DNA from: Chitinophagales bacterium
Lineage (GTDB): Bacteria; Bacteroidota; Bacteroidia; Chitinophagales; UBA2359
DNA length: 39,813 nucleotides
Direction of reading: 5' to 3'
Assembly (NCBI GenBank): GCA_020629005.1
Contig: JAHDEE010000035.1
Location: 1 to 39,813 of the forward strand
A program made the translations under genes and the position numbers. Below, piece after piece: positions 397 through 17,180 of the stretch. The stretch's first letter is position 1, and every line of letters starts with the position of its first letter. The notes beneath the pieces were generated by a model, which saw nothing but the letters and a program-made list of their open reading frames with translations, searched no databases and was not told the DNA's origin.

Positions 397-3075
397 ATGA
401 AAATAGGCATCATCTTCGGCGGGGCCTCAAGAGAACGCGAAATATCCTTTGCAGGCGGTAGAACCGTCTACGATAATCTCGACAGGGACCTCTTTGAGCC
501 AGTTCCCATCTTTATGGACAGCGGAGGAAAGCTGGTGCTCCTGGATTGGCAATATGTTTATAAAGGCAGCATTCGCGACTTCTACCCACCAGCAGAAGAT
601 TTGCCAGCTGGCACTGATCCATATCAGATCTACGCAGAATCAGTCGATAGCAAAAACGAGCAGCAGACAGATATACTTCGCAAAATCGGAACACCTGTAG
701 CTGCCGAAGACCTTTCTAAACATATTGATATGGCCTTCCTTGCCCTGCACGGAGCACTCGGCGAAGATGGGGTGATGCAGGCGGTGCTCGAAAGGCAAGG
801 AATCCCCTATACCGGCTCGGGAATCATGGCTTCTTCCATAGGAATGGACAAAGCATTCCAAAAGGACATGATGCAAAAGGCAGGCTTCGAAACCCCAAAA
901 AACTTCCTGATCAAACGAAGGCAATGGAAAACACAGACTGAATCTAGCTCTTTTTTCGAGGAGGCCGTAAAGCAAGTCCAACTGCCTTTTGTTATTCGCC
1001 CGGCATCCCAGGGTTCCTCCATTGGAGTCAGCATGCAAGCAGCAGACTGCGAGCAAGAATTCATCGCCAACTGCGAGAAAGCCTTTTTTCTAAAAAGCAT
1101 CAGTAAAACAGAATGGGATGAGCAAAAGAGCAAGCACAGCTTCATACAATCCCTAATAGATCTCCGCGAAGGCCTTGGACTGCCCTTGCTAATCAAAGAC
1201 CAATACTTCGATCACCCAGTAGCACTCGAAGCCTTCATTAGTTTGCACTTCGAAGCCAGCGATGAGCCGATTCAATTGGAAGGATTGCACAAGGAAAACG
1301 AAATCATCGTAGAAGAATTCCTCGACGGCAAGGAGTTCTCCTGCATTGTTCTTCGCGATGAAGACAATCAAAGTCTAGCCCTTCCCCCAACAGAGATTCG
1401 AAAGGGAAAGGAGATCTTTGACTATCGATCTAAATACCTGGCCGGACTCAGCAGTAAGATTACCCCGATAGATTTGCCAACTGAGCAAATCAGGGCAATT
1501 CAAGACGAATGCTGCCGGCTGTTCGACTTCTTTCGTTTCAACGTATATGCCCGTATCGATGGTTTTATCAAAGCGGATGGCAGGATTTACCTCAACGATC
1601 CGAACACTACTTCGGGAATGTTGCCCTCCTCTTTCTTTTTCCACCAGGCAGCGGAGATCGGTCTTACTCCTTCCCAGTTCCTAACCCTAATCCTGCGTCA
1701 GTCACTGATGGAAAGGGTGCAACATAACGCCCTCCCAACCTGGTACAAGTATCAGCAAATGCTCGATCAATTGGATCGCGATCTGGAAGCCTTAAAAGCA
1801 AGAACCAAACAAAAGACAAAAATTGCTGTCATTCTCGGGGGTTATTCTGCGGAACGGCATATTTCCGTTGAAAGCGGTAGAAACATCTACGAGAAACTGA
1901 GTTCTTCCGATAAGTACGAGCCTATCCCCTTCTTCCTTACTGGCTCCGCCAGCCATTTCGAGCTTTTTCACATCCCGATCAACATTCTGCTCAAAGACAA
2001 TGCAGATGATATTGTGGAAAAGATTCGTTCTTACACAAGGCATGAGATCATTGATGAGATCAAGGAAAGGGCAAAGGCGATCAGCGAAAAGTACGCCTAT
2101 CATCAATTGATCGATGAACCGGTAAAGGTTGAAGTGGCAGACCTAAGCAAGATGGTCGATTATGCTTTCATTGCCTTACATGGTCGCCCAGGTGAAGATG
2201 GCGCACTGCAGACCGAACTCGAAAAGTACCATATCCCTTATAACGGATCTGGTGTCCCCTCGTCGCAAATCACCATCGACAAATTTGACACGGGAAGCGA
2301 TTTGAGAAATCTGGGTATGCTGGTTGCCACTCAGGAGCAACTCCTAAAGAAAAACTGGCTTGCAAACAGGCTTGCAACCATCGAAAAGATCGAAAAGCGA
2401 TTTCCTTACCCCTTCATTGCCAAACCTGTCGACGATGGATGTAGTGCTGCTGTGAAGAAAATCGATGACAGAGATGAGTTGGAAGCATATGCGGACATGA
2501 TTTTTAGAGAGCAAGAAGCTCTGGTTCCAGAACTAATCGAGCGGCTGGAACTATTACCGAAAGAAGAGTTTCCGCTTAAGGAACGATTTCTGATAGAGAA
2601 CCTGATTGAGGCGCAGCAAGCAAGCCATTTCCTGGAGATAACAGGAGGCTTATTGACCCATCATAGTGATAATGGCATCATTTATGAAATATTCGAGCCT
2701 TCAGAAACCCTGAAAACGGATGATATATTATCTTTGGAGGAAAAATTTCTGGCTGGCCAGGGACAAAACATTACGCCTGCGAGATATACGGATAAGCCCG
2801 AACTAAATAGGAAGATCGCAGAAAAAGTCAAGCATGAACTCAAAAAGGTCGCAAAAGCCCTAAATATCGAGGGATATGCAAGAATTGACGCCTTTGTCAG
2901 AATCTTTGAAGATGAGCGAGTTGAAACAATCATCATCGAAGTCAACTCATTGCCGGGTATGACACCTGCAACCTGCATTTTCCATCAATGTGCCATCAAT
3001 GGTTACAAACCATTCCAGTTTATTGACAAAATAATCGAATACGGATTTGAAAAGTTCACTGATAAGGTTTCTTAA
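397..3075 (+). CDS. Tandem (fused) D-alanine--D-alanine ligase, two ATP-grasp halves
   Basis: The 892-residue product holds two D-Ala-D-Ala ligase units end to end (about 1-465 and 473-892); a normal Ddl is 300-370 residues. Ddl joins two D-alanines with ATP for peptidoglycan precursors in the cytoplasm. Each half starts with the Ddl N-terminal motif (ASREREIS near 10, YSAERHIS near 483) and has HGxxGEDG (118-125, 595-602). The first half keeps the GSSIG loop (207-210), EEFLDGKEF (306-314) and FDYRSKY (341-347). However, it has Arg201 where the ATP-binding lysine of xVKP is expected, and Asp401 where the metal-ligand Glu is expected. The second half keeps Lys676, Glu848 and Asn850, but its glycine-rich loop is GCSAA and it lacks the EExxxGxE segment. 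A long insertion (about 215-300) separates loop motifs in the first half. The 3' end overlaps the PASTA gene. Ligase homology is certain; which half is active is unknown. Confidence 0.9.
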   Translation: MKIGIIFGGASREREISFAGGRTVYDNLDRDLFEPVPIFMDSGGKLVLLDWQYVYKGSIRDFYPPAEDLPAGTDPYQIYAESVDSKNEQQTDILRKIGTPVAAEDLSKHIDMAFLALHGALGEDGVMQAVLERQGIPYTGSGIMASSIGMDKAFQKDMMQKAGFETPKNFLIKRRQWKTQTESSSFFEEAVKQVQLPFVIRPASQGSSIGVSMQAADCEQEFIANCEKAFFLKSISKTEWDEQKSKHSFIQSLIDLREGLGLPLLIKDQYFDHPVALEAFISLHFEASDEPIQLEGLHKENEIIVEEFLDGKEFSCIVLRDEDNQSLALPPTEIRKGKEIFDYRSKYLAGLSSKITPIDLPTEQIRAIQDECCRLFDFFRFNVYARIDGFIKADGRIYLNDPNTTSGMLPSSFFFHQAAEIGLTPSQFLTLILRQSLMERVQHNALPTWYKYQQMLDQLDRDLEALKARTKQKTKIAVILGGYSAERHISVESGRNIYEKLSSSDKYEPIPFFLTGSASHFELFHIPINILLKDNADDIVEKIRSYTRHEIIDEIKERAKAISEKYAYHQLIDEPVKVEVADLSKMVDYAFIALHGRPGEDGALQTELEKYHIPYNGSGVPSSQITIDKFDTGSDLRNLGMLVATQEQLLKKNWLANRLATIEKIEKRFPYPFIAKPVDDGCSAAVKKIDDRDELEAYADMIFREQEALVPELIERLELLPKEEFPLKERFLIENLIEAQQASHFLEITGGLLTHHSDNGIIYEIFEPSETLKTDDILSLEEKFLAGQGQNITPARYTDKPELNRKIAEKVKHELKKVAKALNIEGYARIDAFVRIFEDERVETIIIEVNSLPGMTPATCIFHQCAINGYKPFQFIDKIIEYGFEKFTDKVS

Positions 3076-3994
3076 GCACTTCTTCATCCATTTGCTACTA
3101 ATGGGGCTTGTGCTGATGTTGCTCATTTGGGGAGTCATGACAGCCCTGAATGCCTATACCCACCACGGGGAAAGCATCACCGTGCCGGATGTGACAGGCA
3201 TGACCTTAGATCAAGTGGAAAAACTGCTTAACAGCAGAAATCTGCGATATAGGGTCATGGACTCTACTTATGTCAGTGGAAAGCTTCCCGAGGCAATCAT
3301 TGACCAAAATCCGCCGGCAAATGCAAAGGTAAAAGAGAACCGTCGCATATACTTGACCGTAAATGCCAAGGTTCCGCCAAAAACCCGCATGCCCGATCTG
3401 CTAACCGTAGACCTGGTCAATGCCAAGATACAGCTAAAGGGTAGTGGATTGAAGCTCGGAAATGTAGAGTATGTACCGTTCAGCAAGAAAATTGTGCGTA
3501 GTGCGCTCATGAATGGCAGAGAAATTGCTAAAGGTACCGAGATTCAAAAGGGCTCTGTCATTGATTTGATCGTCGGTAATGGTCAGGCCAACTACTATAT
3601 ACCTGTGCCGAAACTGACTGGATTGACCTTGAATGAAGCTCGATCAGTTTTGGGAATGCGACAACTGCTAGAAGGGGCAATTGTCCCCAATCCAGGAGTT
3701 ACAAACAGAGGCGCTGCCTACGTCTATCGACAGGAGCCTGCCTTTGGTGGGCAGATCGCAAGAGGAGAGCCAATAGATCTTTGGTTACAGAACGAAGTTC
3801 CCTTCTTCTACGATGACACAGAATCGCAGGACGCAGTTCCTGATTATGAAGGTATGAGAAATCAAATTGAACAAGAAAGAGAAAGAGTATTGGACCAAAG
3901 TCCGGGAGGATTCCCCCCGGCACCAAATGGGGTCTTCCCAGACGATAACCAGGAAAGTGCGCCAGATAGCAATAACCCCGATGGATGGGAATAA
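3047..3994 (+). CDS. Membrane-anchored PASTA-domain protein
   Basis: A 315-residue protein starts with a basic stretch and one transmembrane helix (about 10-34). Three PASTA domains follow (about 40-103, 107-176, 180-248; first motif TVPDVTGMTLDQVEKLL), then an acidic, proline/asparagine-rich tail. PASTA domains bind muropeptides or beta-lactams in division-linked kinases and PBPs; here there is no kinase or transpeptidase domain. The topology predicts domains in the periplasm. The start chosen is TTG at 3047, which overlaps the ligase by 29 bases and supplies the positively charged N-terminus. The next ATG (3101) would begin inside the membrane helix. Overlap with ddl implies co-transcription and possibly translational coupling, fitting a cell-wall role. 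Exact function is unknown. Confidence 0.88.
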   Translation: MKSSLIRFLKHFFIHLLLMGLVLMLLIWGVMTALNAYTHHGESITVPDVTGMTLDQVEKLLNSRNLRYRVMDSTYVSGKLPEAIIDQNPPANAKVKENRRIYLTVNAKVPPKTRMPDLLTVDLVNAKIQLKGSGLKLGNVEYVPFSKKIVRSALMNGREIAKGTEIQKGSVIDLIVGNGQANYYIPVPKLTGLTLNEARSVLGMRQLLEGAIVPNPGVTNRGAAYVYRQEPAFGGQIARGEPIDLWLQNEVPFFYDDTESQDAVPDYEGMRNQIEQERERVLDQSPGGFPPAPNGVFPDDNQESAPDSNNPDGWE

Positions 3995-6558: not shown

Positions 6559-6870
6559 ATGCAAGATATTACCGTCGCTGACCTAAAGGACCGCATAGAC
6601 AAGGAGGAAAAAGTAATTCTCATTGACGTAAGAGAACCTTACGAGTTTGAAGAATTCTCCTTGACTGGTGCCGAAAACATTCCACTTGGGAATCTGATGA
6701 ATGTTATGGACGACCTGCTGGATACCTACAAAGATTCTGAGGTTATCGTAAGCTGTCGTTCTGGGAATCGTAGTGGAATGGCTAAGCAGCTGATGGTTTC
6801 GCAAGGTTTTTCCAATGTTCGTAATTTGCTCGGCGGGGTGATGGCCTGGAAAGAAGCTTTCGGTTCTTAG
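6559..6870 (+). CDS. Single-domain rhodanese-like protein
   Basis: A 103-residue cytoplasmic protein that is one complete rhodanese domain. It has the LIDVREPYEF motif (21-30), AENIPLGNL (38-46), and the active-site loop CRSGNRS with Cys66 as the predicted persulfide carrier, ending in the family's GGVMAWK. Such proteins move sulfane sulfur or act as sulfurtransferase accessory domains. The gene starts 6 bases after the preceding gene and its TAG stop shares a G with the GTG start of the next gene, so it lies in a tight run with the multihaem cytochrome. A functional link to the cytochrome is only suggested by this coupling. Confidence 0.9.
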   Translation: MQDITVADLKDRIDKEEKVILIDVREPYEFEEFSLTGAENIPLGNLMNVMDDLLDTYKDSEVIVSCRSGNRSGMAKQLMVSQGFSNVRNLLGGVMAWKEAFGS

Positions 6871-8792
6871 TGAGACTTACGCTACTTATCAAGACAAGTC
6901 TGGTCCTACTTGTCCTTTCTCTCTTTATCTATTGTCAATCAAACAAGCCAATTAGTCAAAAGGCTAAGGCATCGCCGTATGCAGGTCATAATGATACGGT
7001 GGCCTATGTTGGCATGCAGGAGTGTCGACTTTGCCATAGCGATATTTACGATACCTACATTCGTACAGGAATGGGCAAGTCGTTCGATTTGGCGACCAGG
7101 CAAAAGAGTATTGCCACTTTCGATCAACACAGCCTCGTTTACGACAGCGTGGGCAATTACCATTACTTCCCATACTGGAAGAATGACTCCCTCTTCATCA
7201 AGGAGTTTAGACTTTCCGGAAAAGACACGGTTCATCAACGGGATCAATATGTGCAATACATCGTTGGTTCGGGCCAGCATACCAACTCGCACATTTACGA
7301 ACACAATGGCTTTCTGTTTCAAGCACCCATCACCTACTACAGCCAGGAAGGTCGCTGGGATCTTGCTCCCGGCTTTGAAGGAGGATTTAGCTCCCGATTC
7401 AATCGACTGATAGGCAATGAATGCATGAACTGTCACAATAACCACCCTGAGTTTGTTGCTGGATCAGAAAACAAATTCCTGGAGGTTCCAAGGGGTATTG
7501 AATGTGAACGATGTCATGGTCCGGGAGAAGTGCATGTGCTCGACAAAAAAGCAGGTGTAATAGTCGATACGTCAATACGCGTTGACTACAGTATCGTTAA
7601 TCCCGGCAGATTGAGCCGGGATCGTCAACTGGACCTTTGTCAGCGATGTCATATGCAGGGAATAACTGTACTGAAAGACAGCATGGATTTTGCAGACTTC
7701 AAGCCTGGCATGCAGCTCAACAAGTTCATGGAGATTTTCCTGCCTGAATATGATGGTGGACAAAACAATTTCATCATGGCTTCCCAGGCGCATCGAATGA
7801 ACAAGAGCAAGTGTTTCAAGATGTCGCAGATGACTTGCATCAGCTGCCATAACCCACATGTCAGTGTCGAAGACACCCCTTTGGAAACATTTAATACGGC
7901 ATGTAAGAATTGTCATCAGGATAGCGGAGACAAATTGACCTGCAATCTTGATATCAACGCAAGAATGCAGAAGAAGGATGACTGCTCTGGCTGCCATATG
8001 CCTAAATCGGGAAGCATAGATATTCCCCATGTGGAGATCACGGATCATTTTATTCGCATACCTTTAAGTGAGGAAGAAAAAACTGGTGTAGAAGAATTCA
8101 TCGGCCTCGCATGCACCACGAATGCAAGCCCAGATCCACTTGATGTGGCACAGGCACAGATCAACTTCTACGAGCAATTTCAGGCAGATCCCGCTGTGCT
8201 GGACTCTGCAAGATTTTACCTCAATCAATCGGGCAATTCGCTGAGAAAAACGGAGATCGCCATCCACATGGCTTTCCTTCAATCGGACTACAAAAGCATC
8301 CGAGAACTGGCGGCCACAGCAGATAGAGCATTTGAGAAGCCATGGACTTATTACCGTGTGGGAGAAGCAGAATTGCAAGCTACCAATAACAAGGAAGCAT
8401 ATGCCCTGTTTGAAGAGGCCACCAAACGAATGCCACTTAATTTGGATTTTCAAAACAAGTTCGGATCTGCTGCTGCTGCCTTAAACAATTTTGAAGAGGC
8501 AAAAACTGTATTTGAAAAGATCATTTCAGAAAATGCACAGCATGTGGCTGCATTATCAAACCTGGGCTTCGTTTCCATGAAGTTGGGAGACAGTTCAAAA
8601 GCTATGCAACTCTATAAGCAAGCCATGCAGCTTGATCCTGATTATGCTCCTGCCAAATACAATCTTGTTGGTCTTTACACCTTTCAAAGAAAGTATGACA
8701 AGGCAAAGCAACTGCTGCGACAAATGCTCTCCGAGAATCCTAAAGATCAAAAGGCGAGAGATCTGCTAAGCGCCTTACAGGCAAGCATCTGA
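6870..8792 (+). CDS. Seven-haem cytochrome c lipoprotein with C-terminal TPRs
   Basis: A 640-residue protein with a lipoprotein signal (LSLFIYC, lipidation at Cys22). Seven CxxCH haem c motifs lie at about 52, 185, 212, 257, 323, 345 and 372. A TPR region follows from about 450 to the end (e.g. VAALSNLGFVSMKLGDSSKA). This matches multihaem cytochromes of the c554-like type fused to tetratricopeptide repeats, anchored in the periplasm or outer membrane. They probably carry electrons, with TPRs for partner binding; the substrate cannot be read from sequence. Start is GTG at 6870, overlapping the rhodanese stop (TAGTGA). Haem attachment would need a cytochrome c maturation system elsewhere. Confidence 0.9.
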   Translation: MRLTLLIKTSLVLLVLSLFIYCQSNKPISQKAKASPYAGHNDTVAYVGMQECRLCHSDIYDTYIRTGMGKSFDLATRQKSIATFDQHSLVYDSVGNYHYFPYWKNDSLFIKEFRLSGKDTVHQRDQYVQYIVGSGQHTNSHIYEHNGFLFQAPITYYSQEGRWDLAPGFEGGFSSRFNRLIGNECMNCHNNHPEFVAGSENKFLEVPRGIECERCHGPGEVHVLDKKAGVIVDTSIRVDYSIVNPGRLSRDRQLDLCQRCHMQGITVLKDSMDFADFKPGMQLNKFMEIFLPEYDGGQNNFIMASQAHRMNKSKCFKMSQMTCISCHNPHVSVEDTPLETFNTACKNCHQDSGDKLTCNLDINARMQKKDDCSGCHMPKSGSIDIPHVEITDHFIRIPLSEEEKTGVEEFIGLACTTNASPDPLDVAQAQINFYEQFQADPAVLDSARFYLNQSGNSLRKTEIAIHMAFLQSDYKSIRELAATADRAFEKPWTYYRVGEAELQATNNKEAYALFEEATKRMPLNLDFQNKFGSAAAALNNFEEAKTVFEKIISENAQHVAALSNLGFVSMKLGDSSKAMQLYKQAMQLDPDYAPAKYNLVGLYTFQRKYDKAKQLLRQMLSENPKDQKARDLLSALQASI

Positions 8793-9065: not shown

Positions 9066-12000
9066 CTAGCGCACAAATTTTGTGCTTAGTCTCTCTCGTT
9101 CAGAATATACAGATAGGAAATAAGTACCGGCTGGCAGCTCAGCTACTGAAATACGCGCTTGATTGAAACCGCTGGTAAGGTTCATTTTCCCTTGCCGCAG
9201 AAGCTGTCCTAAGACATTCCTGATTTCGAAATCCACAGCTTCCTCAATATCGGAATTCAGGCTTAGGTTTAGATTCGCTTGTACCGGAATCGGAGAAACC
9301 TGAAGCGCAGAAAGACCATTGTTCTCCACGGACCCAAAAGCGGTTTTCAGGGGATGAATCGAACCATAAATGGATTGATAGGCCAGGACATAGTGCCTGC
9401 TTTCTTGTGGCTTTTCCAGGCGTACCTGATAGCTGGCATTTCCTGCTGTGTAGTTGACGCTCGTCAGTACTTCAAATTCATGACCGTCTATAGATTCTAA
9501 CACAAGGAAATTATCGATGTTGGGGGATTCTAGCACGGTCCAGGAAATCTCCCTCTGCTCTTCAAAGTCGTTTACTTGCAGGTCTTCGCTATAGCTGCCT
9601 ACAATCTCGCAACTGGGAAAGTGTAGGGTTTCATTCATGCTCCAGCCGGAAGCATCGGAAATTTGCACATCGACTGAGAAAGCGTAGGGGGATGTTCCTA
9701 CTTCAATAGAAGGTTCGTTTTGCTGAATCGTGCCCCAGAGGTCGCTGGTGAAGTTGTAAGGGGCTACACCATTTAACACAGCAAGGCCAAGCGAAGAGCT
9801 GGCATCATTGGCTTCGAGACAGGTTCTCTCCCAGGTCACGAACGTAGCGCTAAGTGTACCACAATCGAAAACAAGTTCACCAGAAGAACTGAGGCAAGTC
9901 AAAGCTTCCGCATTATTATTCCAAACAAGAAAGTTCATACAGGAAAGATCATTGTAGGTGCCAAGCTGCGCAGAAAAGCCATTACTGCCATCCAATATCG
10001 ACTGTCCTCCCTGTTGGTCATCAAACACATAGGAATCTGCAGTATTCGAATTCAAGACCGTTGCTGTCACAGTATACTGGCCATTGGCTGTACAGCCTGG
10101 AACGAAGGAAACGATTGGTGCAACGCAGCCACTGGTATTGGAACAACTCAAAGTCTGAGATTCGCTGGTAACGAAGCAACTGGAATCATCGTTGTTGATC
10201 GCCGAGAAACTCACCGAGGCCCCGCTATTGTAGGGACCAAATGTGAGTTGGAAATTGTTGGCCGCTGAGGCTTGTTGACTATTCCCATGACCGTCTTGCA
10301 CCAGATAACTGTTGGCAGAACCAGGCGTGAGCGTCACAGAAACCGTAAAGGCATCGAAGGTGCTGCAAACAGCCGAGGCACTGATTTCCGCAGGAACACA
10401 TGATGAGTTACAGTCGGCAAAGAAAATTGGCGTCTGTGTTGGATCACAGTTGAGTCCTGCACTTTGAGCAGTAGTATTAACCACAGTGAAAAAGGGATTT
10501 TGTACATCCGGGTCAAAAACAATTTGAGCTGGATCCAGAGGATTCCCTGCATTGTCTACCACCATAAAATCAGGACAAGCCGGCGTGTAAATTGCTTCGC
10601 AACCATTGCTGGCAAAAGTAACCGAGCCTACCGGGTCTGGATAGATGGTGACCGAAGTACTGGAGGAGCTAGAGCTACCATCACTGCAATTGACGGTGAA
10701 AATATAAGTTTGCACCAATGGTGCACAGGAATTTACTGATTCAGAAATCGAGAGGGAGTTTCCATCACCTAAGAGGTTACCAACTCCATCAGACCATTGA
10801 GCAGATACCAGCGTTCCTTGAGGATCATCCACAGTTGCTGTAAGCAGCGTTTGTTCAACTTCACAAAGGGCAGCTGGTCCCGTGATTCCCAAAATAGTCG
10901 GGCAAGATCCGATAACCTGGGTACAATTGTAGTTCACCTGAACGCTGGACTGGTAACAAGAAAGATCAGCCGCTACCGTAGGATTCAGCACATTGAAAAT
11001 TGCCGAAATGTTCATTCCTTCTTCCGTGGTGGAAATAATGGCAGGCTGTCCTGCCGCTTCTCCATTGATCTGGAAGTTTGGACAATCCGGACTTGCCGTA
11101 ACGGAACAATTGGCCAATTGAATGGTGGCGGTAGGCTCAGGGTAAATCGTCAAACTGACTACCCGTGTGTCCTCGGTGCCGTCCTGGCATGTCACCCGAT
11201 AAGTGTAGCTGTGTGTTTCGCCCTGGCAAGCAGTGATTTGCTCTGAAACCACAAGACTTGATCCATTGGTAATGATACCATTGCTGTCTGTCCACTGCTC
11301 GGAAACAGGTATTATCTCAGGATTACTTAGTGTTGCACTCAGCGTAATCGATTGGCCCGAACAGATGCTTTGGTCTTCTGTGATGCTGGCAATTGTTGGG
11401 CATTCGGAAGCTGCACAGTCGTAGTTAAAAGTATCGCTGATGCTTTCGCAAGCCAGGTCAAATTGTAAGCTTACAGGTATTGTTCCTGAGCTGGTCTGAG
11501 GTGCTATACTTGATGGTAAGACCGAAACTTCGTAGCCAGCCAGATTACAGCTCGGATCAACTTGCAAGGTATAACCGGTCTCGCAGGAGCCAGCAGCCTG
11601 GTAAGACAGCGTGCCTAGTACGTCGATATCTATTGAGCTACTCTGAGAAGAATTCGGACAATTTACCTGATCATTTGAAACAAGCACTGCATAATAGCTG
11701 ATCGTTTCTACACCGCAGTTGGTATTGGTATGTGCAGCGGTGATATTAGCGCCGCTGCCCGCATTACTTTCCACTCCGTTCGCAACTTTGAACCAGTTGA
11801 TTGAATAGCCGATTGACTCTGGGTCACTGACCGCTATGCTTAGTGTAGTTGTGCCACCAGAGCAGATGTATGCTTCTCCAGCCGGAGCATCCACAAAGGA
11901 AGGACAGGATACAGAAGATATGACGCAATTGTATGATGCCGAAACCTGGTTAGAGGAGCAGTCTTCAGGCACTCCCTCTTCCGTGTTGACAATATTGAAA

Positions 12001-15000
12001 GTAATGGTCGAAGTATCTCCACTGGTTTCCGTGCTATAGCTAACAGGGGATTGCTGACCATCAATTGTAAAGTTTTCACAAGTACTGCTTGCCACAAGGC
12101 TACAGCCATCAGCGCTGAGGCTGAGGTTTGCTGTCGGATCGGGATATATAGTAACCACTATTTGCTCTGTTTGCTCGCTACCATTCAAGCACTTTATGAA
12201 CGCGGTTATGGTACGACTAGTGGAGATGCAGGTGCTGTTTTCCAGATTGCTAAGCGTAATGCTTGTTCCGGAGCCTAGGCTTTGGCCATCGGCTCCTTGC
12301 CAGTCTATTTCATCCAGCTGACCACTGGGATCAGATACTTCCACAGAAAGTGTGGGCATATCACCCGAACAAACAAATAGATCGTTTGAGCTTGAAATGA
12401 CTGATGGACAGCCGATAGAGGTACAATCATAACTCTCGGTGAGACTCACATTTGCGCAAGTTAGCGTGCTTGGCGCAGCAGGAATACTCAGGTCAATGTT
12501 TACCTGCGACTGATCTCCCGCGATCTCGGTACTGCTACTAAAGGTTTCGCCTTCAGCACCTCCGTTGACGCTGAAGATTGGGCAATCCGGAACTGCCACG
12601 ATGGTACAACCACCTCCTGTGACAGAAATGTCAGCGCTTGGAATCGGGTAGGTGCTGACATTGACTTCTGCTTCAGCAACTGTTCCATCAAAGCAGTAGA
12701 CTGAGCAGCGAAAGGTTCTCTGGTCTATCTCGCAATCATTGGTTTCTCCCGTAACTGTGAGTGTGCTTAGATTCCCATAAACGAAACTCTCGCCTACCTC
12801 TGTCCATTCAATGTAATTGATTTGGTTGTCCGGGTCAAATAGTGAAATGGAGAGAAGCGAAGAGGCTCCTTCACAGATGGCTTGATCTTCGGTGATACTG
12901 ACAATGGATGGGCACACCAAGGCACCGCAGTTGTAATTGGCTGAAGCTTGACCTGTGGAGCAGGCCAATCCGAATGGTGCGCTGGAATTGACAATATCGA
13001 AACTAACTGGGTTTGTATTTCCCGGAATACTGGTCTCAGATATCGCTGAGCTGCCAGGAGCATTCCCGTTGATTGAAAACTCGGGACAATCCGGGTCAGC
13101 CTGAATCGAGCAACCACTTACGAAGAGGGAAGCTGAGATTTCCGGATAGGAATTCACAATTGTGGTTCCGCTCACTGAAGTACCATCCGTACAGTTCGCC
13201 GTAAACTCATAAGTGACACTTGTTCCACCACAGGGCACAGAGCCAATATCCAGAACAAAACTGTTTTCAATGCTAATGATGACCGAGCTTCCGGCTTCGG
13301 TCCAGGCAACACTGCTTAGGCTACCATTAGGATCTGAGACTGATGCAATCAAGCTGATCTGATCGCCTTCGCAAGTTTCAAATTCCGGACTAATAAAGGT
13401 GATTTCCGGGCAACCTCCGTTTCCTGCGCAAGCATAGCTGCCGTTATAGGTTTCGCTAAAACAAGCTGGTCCTTCAAGTGGGCTGACATTCCATGAAGCG
13501 GTGCCGCTATCGCCAATATTGACTGAAGTTGGTACATTGATCGCTGTCACCTGGTAATTGCTGCAATTGGAAGTAAGCGCTGGTACTTGACAGTTTTCTG
13601 AGCTAAATACAAGATTAGATTGATCATACTGCGGATAGATATTGAGTGTAAGGCTACCGGCCGCCAGGGGGTTCGGATCTTCGGAACAAGTTAGGCCGAC
13701 GTACAAGGTGGTAGTTTGAGCCAAGCAGCCGTCGCCTTGGTATTGAGCAACATAGCTGGCTGTGTTTATACTTTGAGTCAGCGAGGCATCAGCGTACCAT
13801 TGTGTGGCAGTGATTAGTCCATTTGGGTCACTGTAAGCAATCATTGATTCAGCAGCATTGAAATTGGGTATGCCACCGTCGCAATAATCCTGGTTGCTGT
13901 TTGCCAGGCCAGTAAGCTCAGGACAAGTAGCATTGGGGCAGTTGTATGCGATTTCGTATTCTTCGGTAATGCAATCACCTCCCTGGCTGTAAGTTACATT
14001 CCAGACGGCAATTCCTGATTGTCCTGGCTCCACGGCCGTCGGTACAGATACCGGATTGATCAGATAATTATCACAAGTACTTGTTAAGTTCGGAATGCTG
14101 CAATTGACATTACTGGCCTGCAGCAATGACTCATCATAGGGTGGATAAACGATCACCGTTCCAACGGGAAAGGTCTCCGTTGGAGCCCCCGGATTAAGAC
14201 AAGTAAAGCTTACAGAATAGTCAATGCTGGTGGGTTCACAGCCATTTGCGCTTAGCGAGGAAACAAAATCGAGCCCTGTTGCTCCGGGAATTGCCTGGCC
14301 GTCTTCATTCCATTGTATGGTATAATCTGTGTTGAGAACAGCATTTGCCGGAGTGATGCTCAAAGCCGCTGAGACTGATTCGCCAGAGCAAACAGCTGTT
14401 GGCAATGCCGACTGCACATTGACAACAGGACATCCCGCACAAGTATAATTTACTGTTACTGGTTCCGTAAAGCAACTCACACCATCACTAAGATAGCCAA
14501 CATTCCAGGTCGCAGTGCCAGAACTTCCTGGCGGTACAGAGCCAGGCACAGAGACCGGAGTTATGTTGTAAGCCGGGCATGAACTAGACACGGTCGGGAC
14601 AGAACACTCTTCATTGCTAATATTTAGCAGGTTCGCATCAAATTGAGGATGCAAAGTAAAGGCTACTTCTCCCAAGCCAACAGGTGGGCCAATTAGGCAT
14701 TGTGCTGCTACATATAGTGTGACGAATTCGGGATCACAATTGTTACCCTGCCCGGAATGCTGGTAATCCGAAGCAGTAGCTACTATCGAAAATGCAGGAT
14801 CTGTGTACCAGGAGTAACCATTAAACTGCTGATTAGGATCAGTATAAAACCCTCCTAGATCATCGATCGGATCAAGGTCAAGCGGATCTTCTCCTGGGCA
14901 AAGGTCCCAACTTGTATTGACACTGGTAAAGAGCACAGGGCAGGATAAGACAATACAGGAGTTGGTCAAAATTTCCTGGGCTTGCTGACAACCAGCTTCA

Positions 15001-17180
15001 TCAGTGACAGAAAGAATAAAAGAATCGCTTCCTGGCAAAATTATCTCCGTTGCTTCTCCGCTTTCATTGCTTGTTCCGACTAATGGTGTAGGCAATGAGT
15101 TACCCGATTCATCCAGAATCTCCCATGTATATACGCTGTTATCTGCTTCAGGTTGTCCTCCTGTGAAGACTGCTGTTACAGTACAATTGGAAATGGAAAT
15201 ACTGTTTATGTTCAGTTGATTTAAGAATGTTAGCTGAAAGCCAGTTCCCACATTGTGGCATTCCCCATAAAAGTCGTTTGTGTAGTCTTCCGCTGTGATT
15301 GGCGCGACCCATACTGAATTCGCCGAGGAAAAATTGGTCCATGTAAGCGATCCCGTGTCCGAACTACCCAGGGTATTGCCAGTGAAATTCGGGTCGTTTT
15401 CGACATCATAGTCAAAGGCCGGGCTGGGGCCACTGGTATTAAAGACTCCATATACAATTCCTGGGATAAAAGCGTCATCCGAGTAGGTCGGATTCGCCGG
15501 GCCTGTGATAGTGTATTCCTCGCCAAAACAGACGAATGGATCTCCGGTAATAGTACCAGCCACAGCTTCACAAGTGTCATCAAACGGCGGGCAGATGTCC
15601 TGAGCCAGTGTTGCGATATTTCCATAGTCTGCCCAGTTGATGGAAAGATCAAAGAGGCAATCACCATTGGCACCGTTTAGGTTGATAGTTGTAGTACCTC
15701 CCGAATCATCAATATCTGACTGAAACATTTTCAGCCAGTATATCCCATTGGATAGGATTGTTCCCGTAAGCACTGGGACCGGTGGTAAATCTGTTGTGTA
15801 AATTTGTCCCTCGCTGGCGATTACATTGAAGGTTGGCACACAGCCTCCATCGGGGCCGGTTACAATGAAACCAACCCAGATAAACGGTGGATCTGGATTA
15901 ATAGGAATATCGCTCAAGAATCCATCTTCTTCACAAAACAGGACAGCCGTTTGCGTGCCCGTAAAATCTTCTGCCACAAACTGAGCAACCGCTCCACTGT
16001 CTTCGCAGTTACAATCTTGCTCGCAACTGCAATAATCCTCGGAGCCAGTGCAGAGATTATCTCCACAAATATCTCCGCAATTGTCAGCAGAAACGAGTTG
16101 AATAGCGAAATAGCCATTCTTCACCTGCCAGTTGTCGGTTATCAAACCACAACTACCCTGCTCATTGATATACACTGTGTAAATTCCTGTCGTTGTAGCA
16201 GTAAATTCGACTTCACAGTCTGGGGCCGAATTCAGACTTGAGCCCACAACGGATGCATCAGGGGCAACGACAACTATTTCAATGGGCCAGGTGCCTGTGT
16301 TCGGACCAGTACAGGTATTGATGCTATATACATTGCCTTCAATTAGCGGCAGGTTGTAGGCCTCCGTAGGGAAAACTTCCCAGGGGGAGCCATCATTTGG
16401 ATCATTGAAAAACTGTGAAGTAAACACCGTTCCCGGTGGGCCACAGAGAGGATCAGGAGCCCCCGACAGAATTTGATTCATTGTTTGAGACACTGTGTAA
16501 TTGTCCAGAACCCACAAAGTACAATCCTGAGGACAAGGGGGAGCTGAGGCAGTACCTCCGCCCGTACAGGTAAAGGAAGGGACCCCATTATCTTGGTTTT
16601 CGTAAAGTGGCCCGCCGCAATCATTTTCCACGCTAACATAAATGATCACACCAGTATCGATGGCGGGCGTAAATGTAATCGAACAACCGGATGCGGTACC
16701 AATTACAGCAAATGCCAAAGTCCCGTCCCATTCCGCTACTGTTATTAAAGCCGGGGAGCCCCAGGTAGTTGGCAAGTAGCCTGAACAAAACTCAAAGGTA
16801 TATTCAACTCCGGCGGTGAGACCATTAATGGAATAGGCTTCATTTCCCCATACCTCAAATTCACCTGCCAGAAGAGGAATTTCACAGTTTTCAGCGCAGG
16901 GTGCCAATGTTTCGAAATCAGAACGAAGCGCTTCTCCTGCAAATTCCAAACATGGGCTGGAGCCACCTCGCAATTGCATTTCCTCCCCTTTCCAGATCGG
17001 TTTTGCCAACTGGCCACGATGCTCAATTTTATGGCTATCGAAACAATCTGCCTTTCGTGATGGAGTGACAGATAATACTTGTGATTGCACTGAAGAAGCC
17101 AGAGTCAAAAGTAATAAGACCATAAATTGCATGGGCAACAGGATGCCCATGCGGCCATTCAAAAAACTTGGAATTCTCAT
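9066..17180 (-). CDS. Giant cysteine-rich modular T9SS-secreted protein (2704 aa)
   Basis: A signal peptide (hydrophobic core MVLLLLTLASSVQS, about 20-34) opens the protein; ATGs at 17150 and 17132 are alternative starts. An N-terminal region (about 40-740) holds beta-sandwich-like segments of the pre-peptidase kind and a compact Cys-rich patch (about 368-392; CGDNLCTGSEDYCSC). Nine tandem modules of about 168 residues follow (about 745-2262). Each starts CPxI and carries around eight cysteines, usually with a YPxP-like strand and a DCPxF-like strand. Two shorter about 85-residue modules come next (about 2262-2435), then an FN3-like linker and a type A sorting domain (QVSPIPVQANLNLSL ... GTYFLSV ... 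KFVR). Likely a surface adhesin or matrix protein exported by T9SS. No catalytic motif was seen. Both module types recur in the upstream giant gene. Confidence 0.88.
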   Translation of the reverse strand: MRIPSFLNGRMGILLPMQFMVLLLLTLASSVQSQVLSVTPSRKADCFDSHKIEHRGQLAKPIWKGEEMQLRGGSSPCLEFAGEALRSDFETLAPCAENCEIPLLAGEFEVWGNEAYSINGLTAGVEYTFEFCSGYLPTTWGSPALITVAEWDGTLAFAVIGTASGCSITFTPAIDTGVIIYVSVENDCGGPLYENQDNGVPSFTCTGGGTASAPPCPQDCTLWVLDNYTVSQTMNQILSGAPDPLCGPPGTVFTSQFFNDPNDGSPWEVFPTEAYNLPLIEGNVYSINTCTGPNTGTWPIEIVVVAPDASVVGSSLNSAPDCEVEFTATTTGIYTVYINEQGSCGLITDNWQVKNGYFAIQLVSADNCGDICGDNLCTGSEDYCSCEQDCNCEDSGAVAQFVAEDFTGTQTAVLFCEEDGFLSDIPINPDPPFIWVGFIVTGPDGGCVPTFNVIASEGQIYTTDLPPVPVLTGTILSNGIYWLKMFQSDIDDSGGTTTINLNGANGDCLFDLSINWADYGNIATLAQDICPPFDDTCEAVAGTITGDPFVCFGEEYTITGPANPTYSDDAFIPGIVYGVFNTSGPSPAFDYDVENDPNFTGNTLGSSDTGSLTWTNFSSANSVWVAPITAEDYTNDFYGECHNVGTGFQLTFLNQLNINSISISNCTVTAVFTGGQPEADNSVYTWEILDESGNSLPTPLVGTSNESGEATEIILPGSDSFILSVTDEAGCQQAQEILTNSCIVLSCPVLFTSVNTSWDLCPGEDPLDLDPIDDLGGFYTDPNQQFNGYSWYTDPAFSIVATASDYQHSGQGNNCDPEFVTLYVAAQCLIGPPVGLGEVAFTLHPQFDANLLNISNEECSVPTVSSSCPAYNITPVSVPGSVPPGSSGTATWNVGYLSDGVSCFTEPVTVNYTCAGCPVVNVQSALPTAVCSGESVSAALSITPANAVLNTDYTIQWNEDGQAIPGATGLDFVSSLSANGCEPTSIDYSVSFTCLNPGAPTETFPVGTVIVYPPYDESLLQASNVNCSIPNLTSTCDNYLINPVSVPTAVEPGQSGIAVWNVTYSQGGDCITEEYEIAYNCPNATCPELTGLANSNQDYCDGGIPNFNAAESMIAYSDPNGLITATQWYADASLTQSINTASYVAQYQGDGCLAQTTTLYVGLTCSEDPNPLAAGSLTLNIYPQYDQSNLVFSSENCQVPALTSNCSNYQVTAINVPTSVNIGDSGTASWNVSPLEGPACFSETYNGSYACAGNGGCPEITFISPEFETCEGDQISLIASVSDPNGSLSSVAWTEAGSSVIISIENSFVLDIGSVPCGGTSVTYEFTANCTDGTSVSGTTIVNSYPEISASLFVSGCSIQADPDCPEFSINGNAPGSSAISETSIPGNTNPVSFDIVNSSAPFGLACSTGQASANYNCGALVCPSIVSITEDQAICEGASSLLSISLFDPDNQINYIEWTEVGESFVYGNLSTLTVTGETNDCEIDQRTFRCSVYCFDGTVAEAEVNVSTYPIPSADISVTGGGCTIVAVPDCPIFSVNGGAEGETFSSSTEIAGDQSQVNIDLSIPAAPSTLTCANVSLTESYDCTSIGCPSVISSSNDLFVCSGDMPTLSVEVSDPSGQLDEIDWQGADGQSLGSGTSITLSNLENSTCISTSRTITAFIKCLNGSEQTEQIVVTIYPDPTANLSLSADGCSLVASSTCENFTIDGQQSPVSYSTETSGDTSTITFNIVNTEEGVPEDCSSNQVSASYNCVISSVSCPSFVDAPAGEAYICSGGTTTLSIAVSDPESIGYSINWFKVANGVESNAGSGANITAAHTNTNCGVETISYYAVLVSNDQVNCPNSSQSSSIDIDVLGTLSYQAAGSCETGYTLQVDPSCNLAGYEVSVLPSSIAPQTSSGTIPVSLQFDLACESISDTFNYDCAASECPTIASITEDQSICSGQSITLSATLSNPEIIPVSEQWTDSNGIITNGSSLVVSEQITACQGETHSYTYRVTCQDGTEDTRVVSLTIYPEPTATIQLANCSVTASPDCPNFQINGEAAGQPAIISTTEEGMNISAIFNVLNPTVAADLSCYQSSVQVNYNCTQVIGSCPTILGITGPAALCEVEQTLLTATVDDPQGTLVSAQWSDGVGNLLGDGNSLSISESVNSCAPLVQTYIFTVNCSDGSSSSSSTSVTIYPDPVGSVTFASNGCEAIYTPACPDFMVVDNAGNPLDPAQIVFDPDVQNPFFTVVNTTAQSAGLNCDPTQTPIFFADCNSSCVPAEISASAVCSTFDAFTVSVTLTPGSANSYLVQDGHGNSQQASAANNFQLTFGPYNSGASVSFSAINNDDSSCFVTSESQTLSCSNTSGCVAPIVSFVPGCTANGQYTVTATVLNSNTADSYVFDDQQGGQSILDGSNGFSAQLGTYNDLSCMNFLVWNNNAEALTCLSSSGELVFDCGTLSATFVTWERTCLEANDASSSLGLAVLNGVAPYNFTSDLWGTIQQNEPSIEVGTSPYAFSVDVQISDASGWSMNETLHFPSCEIVGSYSEDLQVNDFEEQREISWTVLESPNIDNFLVLESIDGHEFEVLTSVNYTAGNASYQVRLEKPQESRHYVLAYQSIYGSIHPLKTAFGSVENNGLSALQVSPIPVQANLNLSLNSDIEEAVDFEIRNVLGQLLRQGKMNLTSGFNQARISVAELPAGTYFLSVYSERERLSTKFVR
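10390..14950 (-). repeat. Nine tandem about 505-bp coding modules (A type)
   Basis: Within the 2704-residue protein, nine successive units begin CPVLF, CPVVN, CPELT, CPEIT, CPSIV, CPSVI, CPSFV, CPTIA and CPTIL, spaced about 165-172 residues apart. The first three form one subgroup (long form, with GTATWNV-like strands). The last six form another (SITEDQAICEG and SVTIYPDP-like motifs). The even cysteine number per unit suggests internal disulfides. Two more divergent units occur in the neighbouring giant gene near 21340-22376. Confidence 0.8.

Follow-up and report, generated by a model that had tools for sequence, protein, structure and literature searches.

D-Alanine-D-alanine ligase (Ddl), an essential antibiotic target (D-cycloserine), is as a rule described as one unit of roughly 300–390 aa. 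Fused forms are also on record. The plant DDL is a fusion of two units that is found across the plant lineage (PMC9954125), and the moss Ddl has been reported to be closest to the Fibrobacteres-Chlorobi-Bacteroidetes group (PMC9434261). In the MurC-Ddl fusion (PRK14573 / NF011171) the ligase is joined to MurC. As regards specificity, Phe at the position of Tyr216 marks the D-Ala-D-Lac ligases of lactic acid bacteria (PMC5996685).

Here we analyse a tandem Ddl encoded by a Chitinophagales bacterium (GCA_020629005.1, contig JAHDEE010000035.1). The whole stretch of DNA analysed, referred to as the window, comprises 39,813 nucleotides. Each half of the tandem has the same domain pair as DdlA/DdlB (TIGR01205, PF01820 + PF07478; 2dln, 3i12, 6u1d) and nearly all of the catalytic residues. 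The tandem differs from these enzymes in that it carries two units per chain, that half 1 has the fixed substitutions E270D, A271P and P275S, and that half 2 has the fixed substitutions E17H, S150C, Y216F and S281T as well as a six-residue insertion. The plastid DDL of plants (Arabidopsis, Physcomitrium) resembles the Bacteroidia tandem in consisting of two fused Ddl units, a likeness drawn from published architecture, but it is a plastid-targeted eukaryotic protein. With the F-type Ddl (D-Ala-D-Lac ligase, 1ehi) half 2 shares the Phe at the Tyr216 position; however, it has Cys in place of Ser150 and Thr in place of Ser281, it is fused to a Y-type half, and there is no phylogenetic tie between the two. 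The MurC-Ddl fusion is also a Ddl fusion but with a different partner, and the tandem scores 183 bits against this model, whose cut-off is 1015 bits. The double DDL fusion is already published for plant plastids, whereas no description of a Bacteroidota tandem Ddl was found in the open literature searched, a scope outside which most subscription papers lie.

Architecture and genomic setting of the tandem

The first-pass annotation had interpreted the locus as one polypeptide with two Ddl units, and this interpretation holds (Table 1). Dala_Dala_lig_N (PF01820) and Dala_Dala_lig_C (PF07478) are found in each half, separately above the Pfam cut-offs. An alignment of the two halves with each other spans 460 columns at 28% identity (E 1e-36). 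An AlphaFold2 model of the whole chain, computed with 76 homologues, has a mean pLDDT of 88.7 and a pTM of 0.88. The fold of half 1 matches solved Ddl chains with a VIA Z of up to 39.6 (the search covered model residues 1–450), and the profile of half 2 matches solved Ddl structures by sequence, with a best E value of 4.2e-35. Judging from the family-model match of the 892-aa protein, automatic database annotation would read plain D-alanine-D-alanine ligase.

Table 1. Features of the tandem ddl locus, with positions in the window and residue equivalents in DdlB
Feature	Position	Strand	Basis
Tandem fused D-Ala-D-Ala ligase, 892 aa	397..3075	+	Single ORF; PF01820 + PF07478 twice
Half 1, residues 1–440, canonical-type Ddl unit	397..1716	+	Catalytic positions kept; fold match; retained alone in family f85
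Arg201 (DdlB Lys144 position)	997..999	+	Lys in 55/81, Arg in 26/81 tandem proteins
DPNTTS: Asp401 (Glu270), Pro402, Asn403, Ser406 (DdlB Pro275)	1597..1614	+	Fixed in 81/81
Linker, residues 441–471, predicted helix	1717..1809	+	No column reaching 95% conservation
Half 2, residues 472–892, second Ddl unit, altered conserved active site	1810..3072	+	Alignment columns; profile matches
Glu486-Arg487-His488: Glu15 retained, Glu17 replaced by invariant His	1852..1860	+	Alignment
Cys682-Ser683, glycine-rich loop (DdlB Ser150-Ser151)	2440..2445	+	81/81 homologues
Glu734 and Glu747 (DdlB Glu180/Glu187), six-residue insertion between	2596..2637	+	Both invariant
Lys783-Phe784, omega loop (DdlB Lys215-Tyr216)	2743..2748	+	Phe in 80/80 rows with a residue there
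Glu848 and Asn850, metal ligands (DdlB Glu270, Asn272)	2938..2946	+	Alignment
Gene for a PASTA-domain membrane protein, overlaps ddl end; start codon uncertain	3047..3994	+	PF03793

A PASTA gene adjoins the tandem ddl in 49 of 63 loci. At the loci L045 (4995–8726) and L129 the membrane-anchored PASTA protein is fused in frame to the tandem, giving frames of 1255 and 1200 aa. A tandem-specific link to PASTA was considered and rejected, since single Ddls of other clades also adjoin PASTA genes, namely at seven of the eight such loci examined. A PASTA neighbour is thus a general feature of ddl in this class. Elsewhere in the window, positions 6870–8792 encode a protein in which CXXCH cytochrome-type motifs are followed by TPR repeats, and positions 9066–17180 encode a protein of 2704 aa that combines PKD-like domains with a type IX secretion sorting tail. 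The source genome also encodes MurF both as a separate protein and fused to alanine racemase (L211 379–2865; G000:C408:1399–2661), and a VanX-type M15 peptidase (PF01427; L212 1228–2073).

Active-site residues of the two halves

Residue conservation was scored on an alignment of 81 tandem proteins, and equivalents are given in DdlB numbering. In half 1 the equivalents of H63, E68, K97, S150, E180, E187, K215, Y216, R255, D257, N272 and S281 are invariant in these 81 proteins, and that of E15 is invariant within the sampling. The canonical Ddl catalytic set is therefore retained save for two exchanges, the conservative K144R at a position variable between Lys and Arg, and E270D, which is fixed. 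Both had been taken as losses, Arg201 of the ATP lysine and Asp401 of the metal-binding Glu. The distribution at position 201 (Table 1) does not bear out a lost lysine. Likewise, Asp occupies position 401 in all 81 tandem proteins and also in 32 of 32 proteins of family f85 (see below), whose sole Ddl is half 1. Judged by these alignments, Arg201 is a tolerated swap and Asp401 a fixed clade state, and neither is a sign of decay.

Half 2 retains E15 (E486), H63, E68, K97, K144, S151, E180 (E734), E187 (E747), K215 (K783), R255, D257, E270 (E848), N272 (N850), P275 and G276. Its fixed differences are the replacement of E17 by His488, of S150 by Cys682, of Y216 by Phe784 and of S281 by Thr859. 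With regard to the Ddl active-site set, everything but S150 (Cys) and Y216 (Phe) is retained, in 29 of 29 sequences, and K676, S683, E734, E747, K783, R829, D831, E848 and N850 are invariant. The Lys783-Phe784 pair aligns with the Lys-Phe of the solved DdlB mutant Y216F (1iow).

The first-pass annotation had placed Arg201, Asp401, Lys676, Glu848, Asn850 and the GCSAA stretch (681–685) correctly, but two of its statements on half 2 have to be revised. The GCSAA loop had been called degenerate; since C682 and S683 are identical in every one of the 81 homologues, the loop is fixed and not decaying. An EExxxGxE segment had been declared missing, yet the invariant equivalents of Glu180 and Glu187 are present and merely spaced apart by the insertion (Table 1).

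The two halves have a mean pairwise identity of 53.7% (half 1) and 53.9% (half 2) over 2850 pairs, and the columns with at least 95% identity number 119 in half 1 and 108 in half 2. From these near-equal values it follows that half 2 is as constrained as half 1, catalytic positions included.

Distribution, origin and the half 1-only family

A second, ordinary ddl, which the first-pass annotation had considered, was not found: a PF01820 search of the source genome yielded no protein beyond the two halves (456-contig draft, 96.7% complete, in which a gap could hide a ddl). Other PF07478 matches in this genome were rejected as candidates, as all of them are devoid of the Ddl N-domain. A scan for further double Ddl proteins yielded 37 loci, all in Bacteroidota-named genomes (Aureispira, Cesiribacter and Imperialibacter among them), which encode the same double protein with 48–78% identity.

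Of 197 Bacteroidia genomes sampled, 93 show the tandem-type pattern, i.e. at least two PF01820 matches, and these span 36 family codes; the count was made by hand and includes a few fragmented assemblies, hence about 90 tandem genomes. Their open frames mostly measure 860–1000 aa. Most of the remaining genomes of the sample have one PF01820 match in a frame of about 330–410 aa. Since no additional Ddl N-domain was detected in the tandem genomes of this sample, the tandem replaces the ordinary Ddl. Roughly 220 sampled genomes from other classes of the phylum contained no tandem.

Maximum-likelihood trees separate the first halves from the second halves, each set forming its own group (100/100). 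Both groups stand apart from all 20 single Bacteroidia Ddls (99/96), which join other Ddl clades. It is important to note that long branches lead to the outgroup in these trees, and therefore the placement of the root is less sure. The simplest reading is a single internal duplication and fusion that took place before these lineages spread.

Family f85 (61 genomes, 36 genera) has a Ddl of about 550–680 aa, which corresponds to half 1 plus a remnant of ~100 aa of the half 2 N-terminal domain; the ATP-grasp (catalytic) part of half 2 has disappeared. Two of the 61 proteins are fragments. In two f85 genomes examined with PF01820 no other clear Ddl was found. All catalytic residues of half 1 are kept in the 32 proteins aligned, and position 201 is Lys throughout (32/32). 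The family branches from within the half 1 clade, and the loss of half 2 is therefore secondary. These observations suggest that half 1 is the essential ligase and may do the job alone. The loss of half 2 also shows that at least one lineage can do without this half, and its role may be minor. Position 406 is Pro in 32 of 32 f85 proteins versus Ser in 81 of 81 tandem proteins, which hints at a link between Ser406 and the presence of a second half. At the f85 loci L130, L131 and L170–L199 the N-terminal remnant of half 2 is decaying. No PASTA gene was found beside the f85 ddl in two 12-kb loci (L201, L206).

Proposed roles of the two halves

We consider it probable that the tandem, of single duplication origin, is the only Ddl of the cell, with half 1 as the catalytic unit and half 2 as a conserved nucleotide-binding partner. 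In such a protein half 1 would work as an ordinary ligase and supply D-Ala-D-Ala to MurF, and half 2 would bind ATP or ADP in its altered pocket. Half 2 may at the same time be the built-in partner of half 1, so that the usual Ddl homodimer, with its dimer-like packing, would be realised within one chain. From this position it might either regulate half 1 or catalyse a reaction with a different second substrate. Going by the residue patterns, D-Ala-D-Ala synthesis most likely falls to half 1, and half 2 has most likely kept nucleotide binding. That its ATP and metal residues are conserved is, however, not proof of turnover. The first-pass annotation had proposed that one half is a regulatory partner or that the specificity differs; both readings survive, for half 2.

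Alternatively, both halves could be active D-Ala-D-Ala ligases, with doubled catalytic sites and a Phe/Cys pocket in half 2 that still takes D-Ala. We regard this as unlikely, even though half 2 retains a nearly full catalytic set and DdlB Y216F has been solved with ADP and phosphoryl phosphinate (1iow), so that Phe is compatible with formation of the intermediate. The exchanges S150C, Y216F and S281T lie in pocket-facing loops of every half 2 homologue and argue for a changed task, and one family (f85) has lost half 2.

Quite improbable, in our estimate, is a half 2 that makes another product, e.g. a depsipeptide or another D-Ala-D-X dipeptide, through the replacement of Tyr216 by Phe as in D-Ala-D-Lac ligases. 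To our knowledge peptidoglycan ending in D-Lac has not been documented in Bacteroidota, which counts against such a product. The F-type rule, moreover, stems from Lactobacillales enzymes that retain Ser150, whereas half 2 has Cys and further swaps. What speaks for this alternative is that Phe or Tyr at the position in question decides between depsipeptide and dipeptide in lactobacilli (PMC5996685), that the Latilactobacillus Ddl in our alignment also has Phe, and that the source genome encodes two MurF-type proteins.

Half 2 might also be a catalytically dead pseudoenzyme whose sole retained role is that of a structural partner in the dimer. Ddl commonly crystallises as a dimer (PMC6899670), and what f85 keeps of half 2 is only a part of the N-terminal domain, as expected if packing matters. 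In a half kept for structure alone, K676, S683, E734, E747, K783, R829, D831, E848 and N850 would not have to be invariant, and the loss or drift of catalytic residues expected of a pseudoenzyme was not seen in half 2 in the homologue alignment. This explanation, too, appears hardly probable to us.

Complementary decay, by which each half would lack different active-site residues and one composite function would remain, can practically be dismissed: there are indeed fixed positions at which the halves differ, but neither half is without the essential set, both keep nearly the whole ATP, Mg and transition-state set under equal constraint, the substitutions are fixed clade-wide or, like R201, tolerated, E734 and E747 are present, and f85 shows half 1 able to stand alone. 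The functional split proposed on that basis fares better, as the fixed half-specific differences make a split likely; what falls is decay as its reason.

About half of the sampled Bacteroidia rely on a tandem form that is annotated merely as Ddl. A farther-reaching scenario, which we put forward as speculative and rather doubtful, is that half 2 either acts as a ligase on a substrate of its own or serves as an ATP-sensing allosteric site and that, in addition, the fused DDL of plant plastids descended from the Bacteroidia tandem. If this were true, two distinct D-amino-acid ligase sites would be coupled in one polypeptide, and the half-specific chemistry would be relevant to chloroplast peptidoglycan. 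Family f85, which is devoid of the second ATP-grasp domain, represents a natural deletion experiment on the second Ddl unit. The double DDL of plant plastids has an unexplained second unit, and together with f85 it makes the role of this unit directly testable.
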